Positions 13,457-62,778 of a stretch of 62,778 nucleotides of DNA are shown here, one piece after another. This DNA comes from Rhodocyclaceae bacterium. Its GTDB lineage: Bacteria > Pseudomonadota > Gammaproteobacteria > Burkholderiales > Rhodocyclaceae. Below the pieces are notes generated by a model. It did no database searches. It saw nothing but the letters and a program-made list of their open reading frames with translations, and was not told where the DNA came from. The stretch spans positions 1 to 62,778 of the forward strand of contig JAGRFY010000017.1 of NCBI GenBank assembly GCA_020445765.1. The letters run 5' to 3'. Position 1 is the stretch's first letter. Each line of letters begins with the position of its first letter. Made by a program: the position numbers and the translations under genes.

Positions 13457-13566
13457 CAAATGACTCCGGATCGGCGAATTGGCCGGTGGCGGGGAGAAGA
13501 CAATATTGGGGGCGCGACAGCGCATTTGCAACGGTGCGGAAGGTGGCCCGGCCTAAACTGTCGGGC

Positions 13567-14880
13567 ATGCAATCCCGAGTCGTCACCCGCGCTGCCGCAG
13601 CGCTGTTGATCCTGATGGCCTCTCTGGCTGCAGCGCATGGCGCGGGTGCGCCGGTTCCGGCCTGGCCGGCGGGGCTGGCGGCGTGGTCGGCCGGTGTCCT
13701 GCTGTGGCCGCGGCTCGATCCCCGTCAGCGCCGCCAGGTCGCGTGGCTGATCGGCATCGGCCTGCTGGCGCTGGTGATCGGGGCCACGCTCGGCGTGCGT
13801 GGCGCCTGGCTCGGCGTGCTGACCCAGAACAATGCCTTGCTCGGCATGCTGGTCGGTGTCAGTTTTCTGCAACTGGTCGGCCTGGGCAGTGACGAAGGGC
13901 GGCTGCCGCGCGGTCGCGGCGCGCTGTGGCGGACCCTGGCCGGTGTTCACCTGTTCGGCGCCGTGATCAACCTGTCAGCGGTATTCATCATGGGCGACCG
14001 CATGTCGGCAGGCGGCCGGCAGCTCGAGCTGCGACAGGCGGTGCTGCTGGTGCGGGGCTTTCTCGCCGCGGCGATGTGGTCGCCCTTCTTCGCCGCGGTG
14101 GCCGTCGCCCTGACCTACGCACCGGGCAGCACCTTGCTCGGCGTGGTTGCCGCAGGGGCGCCGTTCGCGCTGCTGCTGCTGGCGCTCGCGGGTTACCGGC
14201 TCGAGCGCGAGCTGGGTGCCGGGGTGACCGGGTTCGTCGGTTATCCGATGCACGTCGCGGCGTTGTGGCTGCCGGTGCTGCTGGCGGTGACGGTCGCGGC
14301 CGGCCGCCAGTGGCTGCCGGGCTGGACCGCGCTGGCGGTGATCACGGTGGCGGCGCCGGTGATCGCGGTGCTCGCCAGCCTGTTGCGGCATGGCCCGGTC
14401 GAAACGGTGCGGCGAGTCGGTGACCAGGCCGCCACCCGATTGCCGGCGATGTCCGGCGAACTCGCGTTGTTCCTGGCGGCCGCGGTCTTTGCCTCCGGTC
14501 TGCAATCCATGATCGCCGCCAGCGGCCACTGGCTGCCGTTCGCGCAATTCGGTGCCCTGCAGGCTGCGCTGGTACTGGGCGCGATGATCGGCGCGGCGTT
14601 GATCGGCGTCCACGCAGTGATCTCGATCTCGCTGGTGTCGGCCTGGCTGTCGCCGATTTCGCCCGATCCGGTCCTGCTGGCGACGATCTTCAGCCAGTCG
14701 TGGGCCGTCGGTCTGGCTGTCAGCCCGTTGTCGGGCATCCATCTGGCCTTGCAGGGACGCTACGGCCTGCCGGCGGCCGCTCTGGCGCGGGCCAACGCGG
14801 GCTATGGCCTGCGCGCCTACGGCCTCGCGGCGCTATGGCTCGCGGCGATCGCATGGTGGCGGGGCGTCGCCCTGTACTGA
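13567..14880 (+). CDS. Polytopic membrane protein of unknown function
   Basis: This protein of about 437 residues has roughly eleven or twelve hydrophobic segments spread over its whole length and very few charged residues. It therefore sits in the inner membrane, probably as a transporter. The C-terminal third contains a Gly/Ser/Pro-rich re-entrant-like stretch ([18 protein letters not shown]), which distantly recalls ion-transporter-superfamily carriers, but this is only a resemblance. I chose the ATG at 13567; the frame is open back to 13486. Its last 48 bases overlap the 3' end of miaA on the other strand. Nothing nearby indicates a substrate. Confidence 0.75.
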
Positions 14881-15828
14881 CTCGCAGGCGAAGCGCACGA
14901 CCGCGTCGGCGAAATCCGGTGCCAGGCAGTCGAACTCCCTGAGTTCCGGCCAGTCTTCGCGGAACTGGCGGAGCCAGGTGAGCTGGCGCTTGGCAAGCTG
15001 GCGGGTGGCGACGATGGCGCGCTCGCGCAGCGCCCGACGATCCAGCCGGCCTTCCAGGTGGTCCCAGGCCTGGCGATAGCCGACACAACGCATCGAGGGC
15101 AGTTCCGGCGCGAGCCGGTAGCGGCCGCGCAGCGCCTGCACCTCGTCCACCAGACCCGCGGACAGCATCGCGTCGAAACGCTCGGCAATGCGACGATGGA
15201 GCACTTCCCGGCGTGACGGGGCCAGCGCGATGGTGACGGGACGGAACGGCAGCGGGCGGTCGCTCCGACGGGCATAGGCGTCCGCCAGCGGGCGCCCGGT
15301 GAGCCGCACGATCTCGAGCGCGCGCTGGATGCGTTGCGCGTCGGTCGGCTGCAGGCGTGCGGCGGCGGCCGCATCGAGGCGCGCCAGTTGCGCGTGCATC
15401 GCGGGCCAGCCGTGGCGGGCCGCCTGCCGGTCGATTTCGCCGCGCAAGCCGGCGTCTGCCCGCGGCAGATCCGACAGGCCGTCGCGCAGGGCCTTGAAAT
15501 AGAGCATGGTGCCGCCGGCGAGCAGCGGAATGCGGCCGCGCCGGATAATCGCCTCGATCAGCGCCAGCGCGTCTTCGGCGAAGCGCGCTGCAGAGTAGCT
15601 GTCTTCGGGGCTTATGATGTCGATCAGGTGGTGCGGGCACAGGGCGCGCTCGGCCGCGCTGGGCTTGGCGGTGCCGATGTCCATGTCGCGATAGACCAGC
15701 GCCGAGTCCACGCTGACGATCTCCACCGGCAGCCGCGCTGCGATGGCCAGGGCGCAGGCGGTCTTGCCGCTTGCGGTGGGGCCGAGGACCAGCAGTGCGG
15801 CCGGGGGCGCGGAAGAGGGGGCGGGCAT
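14833..15828 (-). CDS. miaA: tRNA dimethylallyltransferase
   Basis: MiaA attaches a dimethylallyl group to A37 of tRNAs reading UNN codons, which aids decoding. The ~331-residue protein has the P-loop GPTASGKT near residue 17, the [18 protein letters not shown] segment, and the C-terminal [15 protein letters not shown] and [12 protein letters not shown] motifs. The frame is open upstream to 16320, but that part is antisense to the TraB-like gene; the true start is an ATG at 15828. This ATG shares the sequence CATG with the oppositely directed start of the neighbouring gene. The 3' end overlaps the convergent membrane protein gene by 48 bases. Confidence 0.95.
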
Positions 15829-16723
15829 GGCAAGGATTGTATCGGCGACACGAACATTGGTCGCAGTGCTGGCGAGCCTTGGCCTTTGGCACGCCGGCCC
15901 GGCGCTCGCCGACGGTCTGCTGTGGCAGGTGCGTGATCGCGACGGTGCGGTGTGCGGGCACCTGTTCGGCACGCTACACCTGTGCGACCGCGGCTGCTTT
16001 CCGCTGCCGCAGTCGGTGTTGTCGGCCTTTGACGAGGCCGGCATGCTGGTGCTCGAACTCGATCCGCAAGCGCCGGGATTGGGCGAGGCCTTGAGCGCCG
16101 CCGGCCGCCTGCCACCGGGCCAACGGCTCGACCGGCTGCTGCCGGCCGGCGACGCCGATCGCCTGGCGCAGGCTCTTGAAGTGGTCGGCATCGACCCGTC
16201 GCCGATGCAGGGCATGCGGCCGTGGCTGGCCGGAACCGTGCTTGCGGTGGCTGCGGCCTCGCGGGCCGGCTTCGACGCGCGCTTCGGCGTCGAACCGTGG
16301 CTGGCCGAACGAGCGCGCAAGCGGGGAATCGGATTGGTGCCGCTGGAAACGGTCGAGCGTCAGATTGCTGCCTTGTCCGGTTCCGGCTTGGCGGCCCAGG
16401 TCGAATCCCTGCGCCAGACCGTCGATATGATCATCGACGACGAGGTTCGCGACTATTTCGAGCGCATTCGCGATGCCTGGCGCACCGGTGATGCCGACGC
16501 CCTGCTGTCGCTGATGAACGAAGGCGCCGACCCGTCACTGATGGCGCCGATGACCGAAGCCGTGATCCATCGACGAAACCGGGAAATGGCGGACCGCATC
16601 GCCGGCTTTGGCTGCGGGCCTTCACCGTACTTCGCCGCGGTCGGCGGTGCCCACTTCGGCGGCGAGTTCAGCCTGGTGCGCGAGCTGGAGCGGGCGGGGC
16701 GGGTCGTCGTACAGATCCCGTAG
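15827..16723 (+). CDS. TraB/GumN family protein
   Basis: The ~298-residue protein starts with a likely signal peptide (residues 1-28, ending GPALA-DG). The family's first conserved motif follows, GTLHLCD near residue 49. The second motif, GGAHFGGEF, is close to the C-terminus. TraB/GumN/Tiki proteins share a fold with erythromycin esterase-like hydrolases. The eukaryotic Tiki members are metalloproteases, but bacterial roles are mostly unknown. The signal peptide suggests a periplasmic location. The start ATG at 15827-15829 overlaps the miaA start on the other strand, so each ribosome binding site must lie inside the other gene. Confidence 0.85.
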
Positions 16724-58522: not shown

Positions 58523-58569
58523 TGGTGGGCCCTGCGGGACTCGAACCCGCAACCAACGGATTATGAGTC
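58523..58569 (-). other. 3' tRNA fragment (anticodon CAU), attachment site
   Basis: On the minus strand 58569 to 58523 matches the 3' half of a tRNA: anticodon loop CTCATAA, variable region, T arm GCGGG-TTCGAGT-CCCGC, an acceptor 3' strand AGGGCCC, and A plus an encoded CCA. The 5' half (D arm, TAGCTCAG) is absent; upstream bases differ from just before the anticodon. This is the duplicate att site left by integration into a tRNA 3' end. The anticodon CAU cannot by itself separate Met from the Ile tRNA that is read after C34 is modified to lysidine. Confidence 0.8.
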
Positions 58570-58645
58570 AGCGTGAAACGCCATTTCCCCGCCCGTTGAA
58601 ACCTATTCCGAGAAGTCCCCAATTCGCCTGAAATCCCAGTGAATA

Positions 58646-58658: not shown

Positions 58659-58743
58659 CATGTAAGCCCGGAAGTGGTTGTTGATTTCTATTCCCTCGTG
58701 TTCCATCATACTGCTTACAAAGTGCGTACACGGAGCGGTGGCA

Positions 58744-60066
58744 ATGGCACGGGTGAAGCTGACGCAGGGAAGGGTTCAGGGGTTCGAGTGCCCAGCCGAG
58801 CGCGGGCAGGCGTTCTTGTGGGATAGCGAAGCGCCGGGGCTGGCGGTGCGGGCGACGCGCAGCGCGCAGGCGTACGTCTGGCAGGGCAAGCTGCGCGGTC
58901 GAGACGTGCGGATCACGTTGGGCAGCGTGGCGGCCTGGACCCTGGAGGATGCGCGACGGCAGGCGCGAGAGCTTCAACGCATGGTGGACCAAGGCAAAGA
59001 CCCCCGCGACCTGAAGCGCTCCGAAGCCGAGAAGCACGCCGCCACGCTGGCAGCCGAGGCCGCCGCACAGAAGGAGCGGGCGGAGGCGGGCAAATGGACC
59101 TTGCGCCGGCTGTGCAGCACGTACTGTGACCACCTGACCGCTCGCGGCAAGGGCCGCAGCGCTGCCGACGCCGAAAGCCTGTTCCGCTGCCATCTACCCA
59201 ACGACGTGGCCGACCTGCCGGCACGCGACGTGACTCCCCGCCAGCTTGCCGAGGCTGTGCGCAAGGTCGTCGAGGCGAACAAGGAGCGCACCGCTGGCAA
59301 GATGCGCAGCTACCTGTTCGCCGCGTACAAGGCCGCGCAGCGGGCACCCTACGACGCTCGACTGCCGGCCGACTTCATCGGCTTCGCGGTCGAGTCAAAC
59401 CCGGTCGAGCCACTGCCGCCGATCGAGGTCAAGGCCGGCCATCGGACGCTGGACGATGCCGAGCTTCGCGAGTACCTGGGCAGGCTGACCGACGCCGCGG
59501 CCGATCGGCTGCTGCTGGTGGCCCTGCTGGCCGGCGGGCAGCGACTGCAACAGCTTGGCCGCGCTACCTTGGCCGACTTCAATGCTCAGGCCGGGACGCT
59601 GCGGCTGTGGGATGCCAAGGGCAAGCGGAAGGAACCACGCGAGCATGTGCTGCCGCTTGGGGCGCGTGCGCTGGCCGAAGTCGAGCAACTGGCCGCACAG
59701 GCGCGGGAGCGGGGCAGCGAGCACTTGTTTTCGCACTCCGGGCGCGTGCCTGTTCGCCTGGAGACCATCAGCAAGCGCGTGACCGAGATCGCCAAGGCAA
59801 TGGCCGGCAAGCCGTTCCAAGGCCGCGACCTGCGCCGCACCTGCGAAACGATGCTCGCCGCGATGGGCATCAGCCGTGACGTGCGGGCGCAACTGCTGTC
59901 CCACGGGCTCGGAGGCGTCCAGCAGGCGCACTACGACAGACACAGCTACATGGACGAGAAGCGGGCCGCCCTGGAGGCTTGGGAAGGCCGCATCGCTGCC
60001 ATCGAGAAGGGCGAGACCGCACCGGCGAACGTGCGGGTGCTGCGCAAGAGCGTTACCGCCGCCTGA
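58744..60066 (+). CDS. Tyrosine recombinase (DUF4102, P4-type integrase)
   Basis: The 440-residue protein has a DUF4102 N-terminal domain (about 5-85, with FLWDSEAPGLAVRATRSAQA and RDVRITLGSVAAWTLEDAR), a core-binding region (about 120-215) and the catalytic domain. Active-site residues visible are Arg in AGGQRLQQLGRATLADF, the segment GRDLRRTCETMLAAMG, in which the usual box-II His before DLR is Arg, the His in LSHGLGGVQ, and Tyr in AHYDRHSY. The ATG at 58744 has GGAG eight bases upstream; an upstream ATG at 58678 would add 22 atypical residues. It sits next to the att site and integrates or excises the island. Confidence 0.93.
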   Translation: MARVKLTQGRVQGFECPAERGQAFLWDSEAPGLAVRATRSAQAYVWQGKLRGRDVRITLGSVAAWTLEDARRQARELQRMVDQGKDPRDLKRSEAEKHAATLAAEAAAQKERAEAGKWTLRRLCSTYCDHLTARGKGRSAADAESLFRCHLPNDVADLPARDVTPRQLAEAVRKVVEANKERTAGKMRSYLFAAYKAAQRAPYDARLPADFIGFAVESNPVEPLPPIEVKAGHRTLDDAELREYLGRLTDAAADRLLLVALLAGGQRLQQLGRATLADFNAQAGTLRLWDAKGKRKEPREHVLPLGARALAEVEQLAAQARERGSEHLFSHSGRVPVRLETISKRVTEIAKAMAGKPFQGRDLRRTCETMLAAMGISRDVRAQLLSHGLGGVQQAHYDRHSYMDEKRAALEAWEGRIAAIEKGETAPANVRVLRKSVTAA

Positions 60067-60491: not shown

Positions 60492-60553
60492 ATGCCGCCC
60501 CTAGCCTTTGGCCGGGCGAAAAGCCGGACACCTTCGCCGGCCTGGGGCGGCAT
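60492..60553. repeat. Long inverted repeat upstream of an island gene
   Basis: ATGCCGCCCC at 60492-60501 pairs perfectly with GGGGCGGCAT at 60544-60553. Inside it GGCCGG (60510-60515) pairs with CCGGCC (60537-60542), with a CCGG-containing loop of about 21 bases. The resulting long hairpin ends 29 bases before the next gene's ATG and starts 26 bases after the previous stop. It has no T-tract. It could control translation of the next gene, act in termination/antitermination, or serve as a replication or recombination structure. Confidence 0.6.
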
Positions 60554-60582
60554 CCCGACGAAGGGCGCCTGAAGGAAGCGCT

Positions 60583-61341
60583 ATGCCTCAGATCGACCGA
60601 TCCAAAGATCGATCGGGACCGTTGATCCCGATCGAGCAAGCCGCAACGGAAGCCGGATGCACGGTTGCAGACTTGCTCCTGCTCGCCGAGGACGGAAAAC
60701 TTCGCCTCTACATGGCATTGCACGGATACTCCGCCCAGAGTGCAAACACGATGGGCGAGAAACATCCGTTTTTCCGCAGTCATGGCTGCCCCGCAGGAAG
60801 CGACGAGTACCTATTGCCGGCCTACGCACGCCACTTGCATCGATTTGGCAAGACGACCGTAACGCACCTCATCGCTGAGAACATGCCGGCGATTGATGGT
60901 GACGATTTGTGGTATTGGAGGCTGGAAGAGCCGCAAGAAGTCACGGTCGAACAGATTTTCATTTCGAGAGGGCACGTCGTCGCGGACGCCGGCGGACAGA
61001 AGAAGCAGGCGGGTCGCCCGCGCGAGGCCTGGAAACGTGACCTGGCCGCAGATCTGCTCGACAAGCTCCTTGTGGCGTACGGCTACGAGCCCGGGCGCAA
61101 ATCCCCTTGGACCGCCGACACCGTGCATGACGGGATGCAGTCGATCGAGAAGGCCGTCACCGGCTGCAATCGTGTCTTCAGCATCAAAACCAAGACCCTA
61201 CGCGTTTGGCTGCCGGATCTCTTCCCCGCCAAAAACCGGAAGCAACTTCCGCGACGCGGGGAAGCCTCGAAGCTGCATGCAGTGACTGCGCAAACTACCG
61301 AAGAATATTTCACCTCCGACTATTGGCAATCTGCCGAATAG
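60583..61341 (+). CDS. Island protein of unknown function
   Basis: The 252-residue protein starts at an ATG with GAAGGA upstream. The N-terminal part contains IPIEQAATEAGCTVADLLLLAEDGKL, like a short HTH-type region that selects a DNA-binding helix (residues about 17-40; the core is EQAATEAGCTVADLL). The C-terminal part has AGRPREAWKRDLAADLLDKLLVAYGYE and a WTADTVHDGMQSIEKAVTG block. I do not recognise the family. The gene follows a 62-bp hairpin and is followed by a terminator-like repeat. It may be a regulator or a replication-associated protein of the island. Confidence 0.7.
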   Translation: MPQIDRSKDRSGPLIPIEQAATEAGCTVADLLLLAEDGKLRLYMALHGYSAQSANTMGEKHPFFRSHGCPAGSDEYLLPAYARHLHRFGKTTVTHLIAENMPAIDGDDLWYWRLEEPQEVTVEQIFISRGHVVADAGGQKKQAGRPREAWKRDLAADLLDKLLVAYGYEPGRKSPWTADTVHDGMQSIEKAVTGCNRVFSIKTKTLRVWLPDLFPAKNRKQLPRRGEASKLHAVTAQTTEEYFTSDYWQSAE

Positions 61342-61456: not shown

Positions 61457-61678
61457 ATGGCAACCACTACCACCCCGACGCCGCCGCCGCGCTGCTACGC
61501 CACCAAGACTGCAGCGCGCATTCTGGACCGCGCTCCGCATACGCTCCGCAAAGCCCACTGCGAGCTTGGGCACTACTGCGGGGTGACTCCCAAGAAACTG
61601 CCGACTGGGGGTTTGCTCTGGCCCGCTGAGGAAATCGACGCCCTGGCGATGGGGCGTTCGCCGAAGCAGGCCGCGTGA
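61457..61678 (+). CDS. Small excisionase/AlpA-like DNA-binding protein
   Basis: The 73-residue protein has a short N-terminal Thr/Pro tail, then YATKTAARILDRAPHTLRKA, which fits a helix-turn-helix of the MerR/AlpA/excisionase type, and LLWPAEEIDALAM at the C-terminus, where the wing and recognition part usually lies. Such proteins control integrase genes or direct excision of mobile elements. Its stop overlaps the start of the next gene by one base. The exact family is not certain. Confidence 0.65.
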   Translation: MATTTTPTPPPRCYATKTAARILDRAPHTLRKAHCELGHYCGVTPKKLPTGGLLWPAEEIDALAMGRSPKQAA

Positions 61679-61986
61679 TGCCGGGCCCCCGAAAAAGCGA
61701 CGCCCGGCGGCAACCGGGCGAGGCGGGAATTGCTACAGCGACACGCCGCCATTCTAGCACCGCTACAGAAGCCCAGCGGGCGCGCCTCCTGGACATGCTG
61801 CGGGAAGGCCCGCGGAGCACGCTTGATTTTCGCGCGGCCGGAATCATGCAATCGGCGACCCGCATTTTCGAGTTGCGGGCGCGGGGTTACGACATTGCGA
61901 CGGTTGCGCGCGCGGCACTCGCAGATGGCCACGGATTCCGCCATGTCGGGGTGGCCGTCTATGCGCTCTTGGGAGAGCGGCGTTGA
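61678..61986 (+). CDS. Helix-turn-helix domain protein
   Basis: The 102-residue protein (a GTG at 61675 would add one residue) has a basic N-terminus and then QRARLLDMLREGPRSTLDFRAAGIMQSATRIFELRARGYDI. The latter matches the small winged HTH domain found in many phage and island proteins, shown here as the core LLDMLREGPRSTLDFRAAG and ATRIFELRARGYDI. It overlaps the previous stop (TGATG) and abuts the next start, so it is the middle gene of a three-gene operon. The likely role is transcription or replication control of the island. Confidence 0.75.
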   Translation: MPGPRKSDARRQPGEAGIATATRRHSSTATEAQRARLLDMLREGPRSTLDFRAAGIMQSATRIFELRARGYDIATVARAALADGHGFRHVGVAVYALLGERR

Positions 61987-62607
61987 ATGGGCCGCGATCA
62001 AAGAAAGCGCGGCGTCGCCGTAGTTGGTGCCTGGCTGCCCGTTTCGCTGGATTTCCTTCGAAGCAGGGCATGCGCCGAACTGTCGCCAATGGCGGCGAAG
62101 CTACTCTTCGATGTGCTGTCGATGCTGGGCACGAATGCCAGCAGGAACGGCGACATCTGCCTAACGCCGAAACTCATGCGGGTGCGCGGCTGGTCAGGCC
62201 GGGAGAGCCTGGGAGCGGCCATCCGGGAGTTGCTGGAGCACGGATTGCTGGTGCGCACTCGGCAGGGCTCAAGGCTCGACTGCAGCCTCTTCGCATGCTC
62301 GCTCTATCCGCTGGACTGCGACCTGTCGAAGTTGGACGTTGCGCCGGGCAGCTATCGGACGACCGACTACATGGGCGATGGGGCAGCGCTTGCGAGCCCA
62401 CCCACCGAGTCCAAGCCGGCGACGTGGCGGCGCTCTCGCAAGGGGACTGCAACGGGGCACCGCAAGGCCGGGAAAACGCAAACGCTAGCCCCGCCCCGGG
62501 ACGAAGTTGTAGCCAAACGTCCCGCCCCGGGACGAACGGCGAGCACGAAAGCGCCGAAAAAGGCGAGTTCGTCCCGCCCCGGGACAAAACCCCCCGTTCT
62601 CACGTAG
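61987..62607 (+). CDS. Winged-helix protein, possible island replication initiator
   Basis: The 206-residue protein starts directly after the previous stop. Residues about 20-100 form a winged-helix region: AWLPVSLDFLRSRACAELSPMAAKLLFDVLSMLG, then GDICLTPKLMRVRGWSGRESLGAAIRELLEHGLLVRT, given here as GDICLTPKLMRVRGWSGRES. This resembles phage replication-protein N-termini and plasmid initiator domains, though I cannot name the family. The C-terminal ~80 residues are basic, low-complexity and partly encoded by three copies of a GC-rich repeat. Rep-like genes beside iterons are typical of plasmids and satellites. An alternative frame (61983-62777) overlaps but reads as shadow sequence. Confidence 0.7.
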   Translation: MGRDQRKRGVAVVGAWLPVSLDFLRSRACAELSPMAAKLLFDVLSMLGTNASRNGDICLTPKLMRVRGWSGRESLGAAIRELLEHGLLVRTRQGSRLDCSLFACSLYPLDCDLSKLDVAPGSYRTTDYMGDGAALASPPTESKPATWRRSRKGTATGHRKAGKTQTLAPPRDEVVAKRPAPGRTASTKAPKKASSSRPGTKPPVLT

Positions 62608-62627
62608 GTGAGCGTCCCGCCCCGGGT
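62489..62627 (+). repeat. Four iteron-like GC-rich repeats
   Basis: The 11-bp core CCCGCCCCGGG occurs at 62490-62500, 62521-62531, 62573-62583 and 62616-62626. The second copy has the complete unit CGTCCCG-CCC-CGGGACG, a 7-bp inverted repeat. The third lacks only the last base, the first is degenerate on its left arm and the fourth on its right. Start-to-start distances are 31, 52 and 43 bp, near 3, 5 and 4 helical turns, so all copies would face nearly the same side of the DNA. Three lie inside the end of the winged-helix gene, the fourth just after it. Confidence 0.75.
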
Positions 62628-62778
62628 CACCTATTTAGATTTGCCATCTGTATGGGTGCTGCGAATCTCCCCTGCCTGAGTGCAGGAGGCGCGCGCGGCG
62701 CTTCGCGGCACCAGCCCCTTCGCCCCGCTGCCGAGCCCAAAAGGCCGGCTCCTACTACAGATTCCACCCCAACGTGAC
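62628..62778. other. Island sequence after the repeats, cut by the window edge
   Basis: The first part is AT-richer than its surroundings (CTATTTAGATTTGCCATCTG at 62631-62650), as at a replication-origin unwinding region or a promoter. A small hairpin CCTGC-CTGAGT-GCAGG lies at 62671-62686. No gene can be called in what remains. Confidence 0.4.

Follow-up and report, generated by a model that had tools for sequence, protein, structure and literature searches.

At the right end of the window, by which we mean the whole stretch of 62,778 nucleotides of Rhodocyclaceae bacterium DNA analyzed here, a short sequence is repeated four times around the 3' end of a gene for a small protein, and the question is what these repeats do. 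The initial annotation, made from the letters alone, had read them as the iterons of a replication origin in a chromosomally integrated island, with low-complexity coding sequence as one alternative.

Organization of the repeat array

Exactly four copies of CCCGCCCCGGG were found in the window, starting at 62490, 62521, 62573 and 62616, all on the + strand. The start-to-start spacings were 31, 52 and 43 bp, and recounting of the exact positions bore out the copy number and spacings given before. Only 0.19 copies were expected by chance, and none of 100 dinucleotide shuffles gave four. The full repeat unit was a 15-bp dyad, GTCCCG-CCC-CGGGAC, and the four dyads span 62488-62628. Copies 2 and 3 were perfect; a single change was present in the left arm of copy 1 and in the right arm of copy 4, so that the outermost half-sites of the array are its weak ones. 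The repeats and the gene were arranged as follows:

61987-62607, + strand: winged-helix replication initiator of 206 aa, predicted from structure model, family profile and fold search
62488-62502, + strand: iteron 1, GCCCCGCCCCGGGAC, left arm degenerate
62519-62533, + strand: iteron 2, GTCCCGCCCCGGGAC, perfect dyad
62571-62585, + strand: iteron 3, GTCCCGCCCCGGGAC, perfect dyad
62614-62628, + strand: iteron 4, GTCCCGCCCCGGGTC, right arm degenerate, 3' of the stop codon

Iterons 1-3 were located inside the open reading frame and iteron 4 beyond its stop, as expected if the candidate rep gene ends within the repeats. Since all three spacings equal 1 modulo 3, the copies lie in three different frames and therefore encode no repeated peptide. 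Expressed in turns of 10.5 bp the spacings were 2.95, 4.95 and 4.10, and helical phasing judged from the window alone was not significant (P 0.08); it became significant only once relatives were added. A second array in the same genome was also considered. The 13-mer CCCGCCCCGGGAC occurs once more, on contig C76, as a solitary copy that was judged to be a chance match.

Predicted initiator protein

In the predicted structure of the 206-residue protein, residues from about 18 to 107 formed a winged helix with fair confidence, while the rest was mostly of low confidence. The window protein had no match in Pfam or NCBIfam, and none in PHROG at E 0.1. Members of its family matched the PHROG groups 'replication initiation O-like' (best 1.4e-5), 'DnaD-like helicase loader' and 'replication initiation protein', each of these replication families being matched by at most 6 of 18 members. 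A profile built from 12 members matched four RepA (RepA_N) initiator structures, the best being 4pta with an E value of 5.8e-4, and otherwise just two designed proteins (E 0.49 and 0.93). When Foldseek was run with the initiator model, RepA initiator domains took ranks 1 and 2 (E 0.08), with CodY and other winged-helix regulators close behind. Neither the RepA_N model of Pfam (PF06970) nor the phage O replication families of Pfam gave a match among the 18 members scanned, which included the window protein. Because of the PHROG, RepA profile, structure and Foldseek results, the earlier assignment of 61987-62607 as a candidate rep gene is well supported by these comparisons, though the predicted protein lies outside Pfam RepA_N.

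No helicase- or primase-recruiting domain was recognized in the initiator. Furthermore, no conserved C-terminal recruitment domain was found in the family, as the tails of the relatives vary, stop early or are missing. In the phage collection the window initiator matched one record, which was recovered again with the protein of a relative; in the plasmid collection the window initiator had no match and the initiator of a relative matched one record.

Conservation of the array in close relatives

Close relatives were collected from the family, where 28 of 395 genomes, counting the window's own, had a match, and also from the species genome collection and from viral contigs. Their proteins were 47-71% identical to that of the window over the aligned part, and for L057 and L058 the identity was 53-55% over the best segment. 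The 31/52/43 geometry was kept within 1 bp in 12 of the 13 close relatives, eight of them measured together and L011, L016, L018 and L057 in the dyad-array test described below; the thirteenth, L017, ends inside the gene. The encoded C-terminal tails of these relatives had differing end points or different sequences. Aligning homologues, a check proposed in the initial annotation, therefore showed that the spacing is kept despite changing tails.

Among the 12 proteins compared, that of the window included, eight went with GTCCCG/CGGGAC iterons and four with GTTCCG/CGGAAC iterons. The centre of the dyad in close relatives was mostly CCC, CCA or GGG. In the GTTCCG kind the inner copies carried the change in both arms, apart from single departures, and copies 1 and 4 carried it in their inward arms. 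The outermost arms (62488-62493 and 62623-62628 in the window) were degenerate alike in both kinds and did not follow the inner change.

In a weakly supported tree of the initiators the two kinds interchange four times (three to four times in bootstrap trees), and the supported branches alone are compatible with a single origin of the GTTCCG kind. The two kinds were separated in 12 of 12 proteins by residue 73, located where the predicted recognition helix begins: it was E or S in proteins with one kind of iteron and A or N in those with the other. Residue 124 separated them equally. Of the 495 label sets tried in an exhaustive relabelling, 5 did equally well within the six residues around 73, and 15 did so when the whole domain was considered. 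Residue 73 might thus be a specificity determinant, a lead from the alignment and not proof.

At the DNA level, mean pairwise identity among 11 sequences including the window was 0.79 in iteron 3, 0.74 in iteron 4 and 0.76 in the AT-rich element that follows it. The spacer between the two iterons was conserved as well:

62587-62606, + strand: conserved spacer between iterons 3 and 4, AAACCCCCNGTTTT-like or AAACCCCCTGTTTT-like, mean pairwise identity 0.70 in the same 11 sequences

The conserved part runs beyond the stop codon, and identity falls to 0.1-0.4 right after the AT-rich element. Since it collapses there, the module ends at about 62646. By eye, the counterpart of the spacer in several relatives could pair CCCC with GGGG around a T-rich loop, and a T tract occupies the spacer position in several loci of the 33/33/45 geometry class.

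Iterons and spacing in distant homologues

A search of 398 genomes of the phylum gave 18 with a match, the window's own among them. The dyad-array test was carried out on 57 loci in all, drawn from genomes, viral contigs, one phage record and one plasmid record. Rows removed beforehand were L013 (the same record as L006), L008 (the window), L034 and L035 (no tblastn match), L064, L065, L067 and L068 (no initiator), and L070 and L071 (copies of L056 and L066).

Each locus was compared with 20 shuffles of its region, and 38 of the 57 scored above the best shuffle. In the strict test, which required at least four strong dyads, arrays were found in 36 of the 57 homologous loci compared to 3 of 200 random regions. 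Among the 21 loci failing the strict test, L021, L029, L075 and L089 still had full phased four-copy arrays, and L073 had four repeats in another geometry (22, 24, 24). Three copies were present in L023 (32/77), L074 (43/42), L077 (22/54), L083 (32/79) and L086 (54/57), where the spacings 57, 77 and 79 are not whole turns unless an intervening copy was lost. Three weak repeats at other spacings were seen in L037, L082 and L090, and no array was detected in these tests in 8 of the 57 loci (L017, L022, L032, L036, L076, L081, L084 and L085). Homologues that keep the gene without phased repeats had been named at the outset as evidence against an origin; absent or partial arrays do occur in some distant homologues, and these are a minority only.

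The iteron sequences were of about 20 kinds, some of them alike, and differed widely between loci, examples being TGTCCAGAAACTGGACA (L056), GGTACAGAAACTGTACC (phage record vB_Pae_U1) and GTTCAGAAACTGAAC (L088). The spacings of the main arrays were 21-24, 30-35, 42-45, 52-54 and 74 bp, and five other values (18, 28, 36, 55 and 68) stem from extra weak sites. For nine geometry classes with 28 spacings, from which single extra weak sites in 10 loci had been omitted by eye (as they were for the RCCA counts below), the best period was 10.4 bp with R 0.81, a value reached in none of 20,000 random draws. P was 0.001 on unique class values and 0.05 on all unique values with the extra sites kept; these P values are guides, as the classes share ancestry and were merged by the analyst. 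The classes differ from each other by about whole turns, for example with a first gap of 31 or of 21-23. Spacing by nearly whole turns is shared by loci with about 20 different iteron sequences. The phasing suggested before is thus supported across relatives and is not significant for the window taken alone.

DnaA boxes were searched for in 19 loci; one had a perfect box (L057) and one a box with a mismatch (L014). The perfect box, TTATCCACA, lies between iterons 2 and 3 of L057 at 1044-1052 on the minus strand.

AT-rich element

The AT-richer stretch reported next to the repeats is real but short, with 79% AT at 62629-62642 versus 32% in the surrounding 420-bp region. The conserved sequence around it is:

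62629-62652, + strand: conserved AT-rich element ACCTATTTAGATTT-GCCA-TCTGTA, probable unwinding region, at a constant position after iteron 4

Up to its RCCA motif the window element reads ACCTATTTAGATTT-GCCA (62629-62646). In each of 16 loci, a set that leaves out L011, L016 and L057, the core beginning with CTAT was located 16-17 bp downstream of the first base of iteron 4. In 35 of 36 arrays, L057 being the exception, the last dyad was followed by 9-22 nt (median AT 0.71) and then by RCCA, a motif present in 0.37 of random 36-nt windows from the same regions. A similar element, CCTATCTAGATATGCCATCTATA, stands beside different iterons in L056. Because L056 and L066 were both found by the element pattern, their elements are not independent evidence.

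Two further properties of the element were considered and rejected. A shared hairpin did not hold up: pairing across the middle of the element was possible in L006, L011, L056 and L020, was absent in L066, and the window element folds otherwise. As a stand-alone search pattern, the element gave six exact matches in viral contigs; the module was present in two of these (L056 and L066), and the other four (L064, L065, L067 and L068) were AT-rich DNA without repeats. The exact pattern was found in none of 369 genomes of the class, and it does not fit the window's own version either.

Island context

Upstream of the initiator the window contains the following features:

58523-58570, - strand: tRNA-like 3' part ending in CCA, recognized by its sequence, probable attachment-site end of the island
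58678-60066, + strand: tyrosine integrase with arm-binding domain (Pfam Phage_integrase 3e-11, Arm-DNA-bind_3 3.9e-10; PHROG integrase 4.5e-33)
60494-60565, + strand: int-alpA RNA (Rfam RF02996, 61.9 bits versus a gathering score of 35.8)
60583-61341, + strand: gene of unknown family at the alpA position, an open frame with no Pfam match
61675-61986, + strand: small winged helix-turn-helix protein (Pfam HTH_39, 1.6e-9), directly upstream of the initiator

ARAGORN found no intact tRNA at 58523-58570. Even when up to 3 mismatches were allowed, the assembly contained just one copy of the 32-base core of the tRNA-like end, so the partner end of the island is not assembled. The window contig stops at 62778, which is 126 bp past the last conserved base of the AT-rich element, and neither the rest of the island nor its other attachment end was found in the assembly. 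The int-alpA RNA stands between the integrase and a gene whose protein has no AlpA match in Pfam. In at least 22 of the 57 loci an HTH_39 homologue was found no more than about 310 bp upstream of the initiator, a lower bound since some loci are incomplete.

Other loci extend further downstream. L056 carries genes for integrase, AlpA, HTH_39 protein, initiator, large terminase, HNH protein, major head protein, protease and portal, and its large terminase gene begins 288 bp after the AT-rich element. L066 carries capsid, portal and terminase genes and an AlpA candidate without a match, and head genes were recognized in L007 by eye only. Judging from their genes, the islands carrying the module include satellite-like elements with their own head genes. 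L040 and L041, which are longer stretches around L010 and L011, have other downstream genes by eye; in L040 type I restriction-modification-like genes follow the initiator at 13471-16643, again by eye.

Two database records deserve mention. PP003913.1 (Pseudomonas phage vB_Pae_U1; L038 and L072) is recorded as a complete phage genome. Annotated on it are an integrase, an O-like initiator, a primase and Rhs genes, but no genes for heads or tails; in this analysis its initiator was found to carry four iterons, and the record looks like an island or satellite. The large conjugative plasmid NZ_CP032520.1 of Cupriavidus oxalaticus (L073) contains a satellite-like insertion that encodes an integrase, a toprim protein, a relative of the initiator, a helicase and a major capsid protein. 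Its repeats of other geometry follow the initiator, by eye without an AT-rich RCCA element. In L017 and L022 the initiator or the array is interrupted, by eye by insertion sequences, and some copies of the replicon are thus broken.

Proposed origin

Several specifically spaced repeats beside an initiator gene, with an adjacent AT-rich region in 35 of 36 arrays, are what is expected of an iteron origin. Starting from what is seen directly, namely the repeats, their dyad symmetry and near-whole-turn spacing, their linkage to one gene family, the joint change of the inner arms and the constant position of the AT-rich stretch, we consider that 62488-62652 is in all likelihood the replication origin of an integrated mobile island, whose initiator would bind the iterons so that the AT-rich element melts. 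The kept geometry, the initiator family, the AT-rich element with its RCCA and the integrase context all favour the iteron-controlled origin first proposed for this island.

The initiator encoded at 61987-62607 would bind the four palindromic iterons, most likely as one dimer per site. Since they are spaced by whole helical turns, the iterons would sit on about one face of the DNA. The resulting nucleoprotein complex would strain and melt the short AT-rich element just past iteron 4, and replication proteins of the host (or of a helper) would enter there, the AT-rich element thereby serving as a presumed unwinding and entry site. Binding, melting, recruitment, and the excision and replication of the island are steps that we infer.

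Alternative explanations

The dyads could instead form an operator array through which the winged-helix protein switches the downstream head or cargo genes, the AT-rich element being part of a promoter. Winged-helix proteins of this size are often regulators, weak MarR_2 matches were obtained for 7 of 18 relatives (best 0.0026), and regulators stood near the RepA domains in the fold search. The array also lies between an early gene and the downstream genes, and L066 has a ribosome-binding-like sequence and an ATG directly after the element. However, the array is found at the 3' end of the protein's own gene and not at that gene's promoter, and no promoter-like site overlaps the AT-rich element. 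The downstream genes vary (head genes in L056, L066 and, by eye, L007; others in L040 and L041) while the array is constant, and the best PHROG and PDB profile matches were to replication proteins. We therefore regard an operator as unlikely.

Packaging is a still weaker candidate, and it is very improbable that the array is a cos or pac site bound by a winged-helix protein resembling a small terminase. Several carriers are satellite-like with head genes of their own, and the large terminase gene of L056 starts close to the element. In L007 and L057, however, putative terminase genes (by eye) are kilobases away from the array, the protein family matches initiators and not terminases, and about 20 array sequences at near-constant geometry suit an initiator/iteron pair better.

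It is hardly credible that the repeats are merely low-complexity coding sequence, or that they act as RNA hairpins in the rep mRNA: although the region is GC-rich, each unit could form a 6-bp RNA hairpin and some arm changes (in copy 4 of L006 and L007) would allow G-U pairing, other arm changes, those of copy 1 among them, leave the arms unpaired, whole-turn spacing has no reason in RNA, no Rfam family was found at the array at gathering threshold, and the low-complexity reading raised in the initial annotation is contradicted by the three frames, the joint change of facing arms and the conservation past the stop codon to about 62646 followed by collapse. Chance or low-complexity repeats were ruled out by the shuffles, the frames, the conservation, the arrays of relatives and the phasing. 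The repeats do encode the tail of the protein, as had been stated. The number of iterons inside the open reading frame ranges from none to all among the loci, and there are precedents in lambda O and pSK41 rep, so that coding of the tail by the repeats looks incidental.

Comparison with known origins

The replication origin proposed for 62488-62652 is of a known type. What is new is a very small initiator, a near-constant geometry under changing iterons, and the RCCA element. In the open-licence literature no paper was found that describes this module.

In pSK41, four Rep boxes lie inside rep and the stretch that they encode is described as dispensable (PMC5703833). RepA_N iterons are mostly inverted repeats according to PMC7145576, which also describes RepA_N as rare in Proteobacteria. 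The window family resembles these systems in that the RepA_N winged-helix N-terminal domain was its best sequence-profile match and its top, though weak, structural match. It differs in having no Pfam RepA_N match, in occurring in Proteobacteria, in lacking a conserved C-terminal domain akin to the primase-binding one of pSK41 Rep, and in placing the array at or past the 3' end of the gene. A further difference is that the window iterons have CCC and not an A tract at their centre; several relatives do have AAA centres.

The four iterons of lambda are imperfect inverted repeats located centrally in the O gene, with an AT-rich tract after them, and the inner iterons are reported to be bound first (PMC7466680). 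Four dyad iterons with an AT-rich tract after them are also present here, and here it is the outermost half-sites that are degenerate. Unlike lambda O, the family has no Pfam phage O match, and PHROG O-like matches were obtained only for some relatives. The AT-rich stretch is just 9-22 nt long and ends in RCCA, and the iterons are mostly 21-54 bp apart. No gene P (helicase-loader) partner was recognized in the window, where the contig ends early.

The PLE satellite of Vibrio cholerae has a RepA_N-type initiator and semi-palindromic iterons, and its initiator domain and origin are reported to covary (PMC7145576, PMC8263062). In the same reports the PLE origin is placed in a separate non-coding region with three iterons of about 30 bp, RepA is given a C-terminal domain, and a large serine recombinase is used. 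The window module resembles PLE in its possibly RepA_N-like initiator and its palindromic iterons, and some of its carriers are satellite-like; in contrast to PLE, the array overlaps the initiator gene and the island has a tyrosine integrase.

In PICIs of the EcCICFT073 type the origin, with iterons and an AT-rich region, is described immediately 3' of the initiator gene, and E. coli PICI origins have one iteron set on either side of the AT-rich region and come with a Pri-Rep protein (PMC6092414). The window origin differs by one iteron set on one side and an initiator in which no primase domain was found. The cf-PICIs are reported to make their own capsids (PMC10803314). L056, with integrase, AlpA and its own head genes, resembles them; the window contig ends before the head-gene position.

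The origin in the window could also represent something broader, a widespread and unrecognized class of proteobacterial satellite or island replicons. These would be built on a fixed scaffold of four one-face dyads and an AT-rich/RCCA entry site, with a minimal initiator and about 20 initiator/iteron versions. We consider this a serious possibility that falls somewhat short of an even chance. In such replicons the initiator would be little more than a DNA-binding domain, and recruitment would therefore reside in the DNA element or in a partner, for example the HTH_39 protein.

Implications

The repeats are very probably the start site for copying the DNA of a small mobile island. The module gives a sequence rule by which proteobacterial phage satellites and islands lacking an annotated replicon can be searched for their origins, and helical phasing, which is often asserted for single origins, becomes testable over many. 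It also poses the question of how an initiator without a recognized recruitment domain starts replication. The loci form a natural series of iteron sequences at near-constant geometry, with which one can ask directly how an initiator and its origin stay matched while changing; the same four-repeat spacing with a changed repeat sequence would allow origin and initiator to be re-matched over time.
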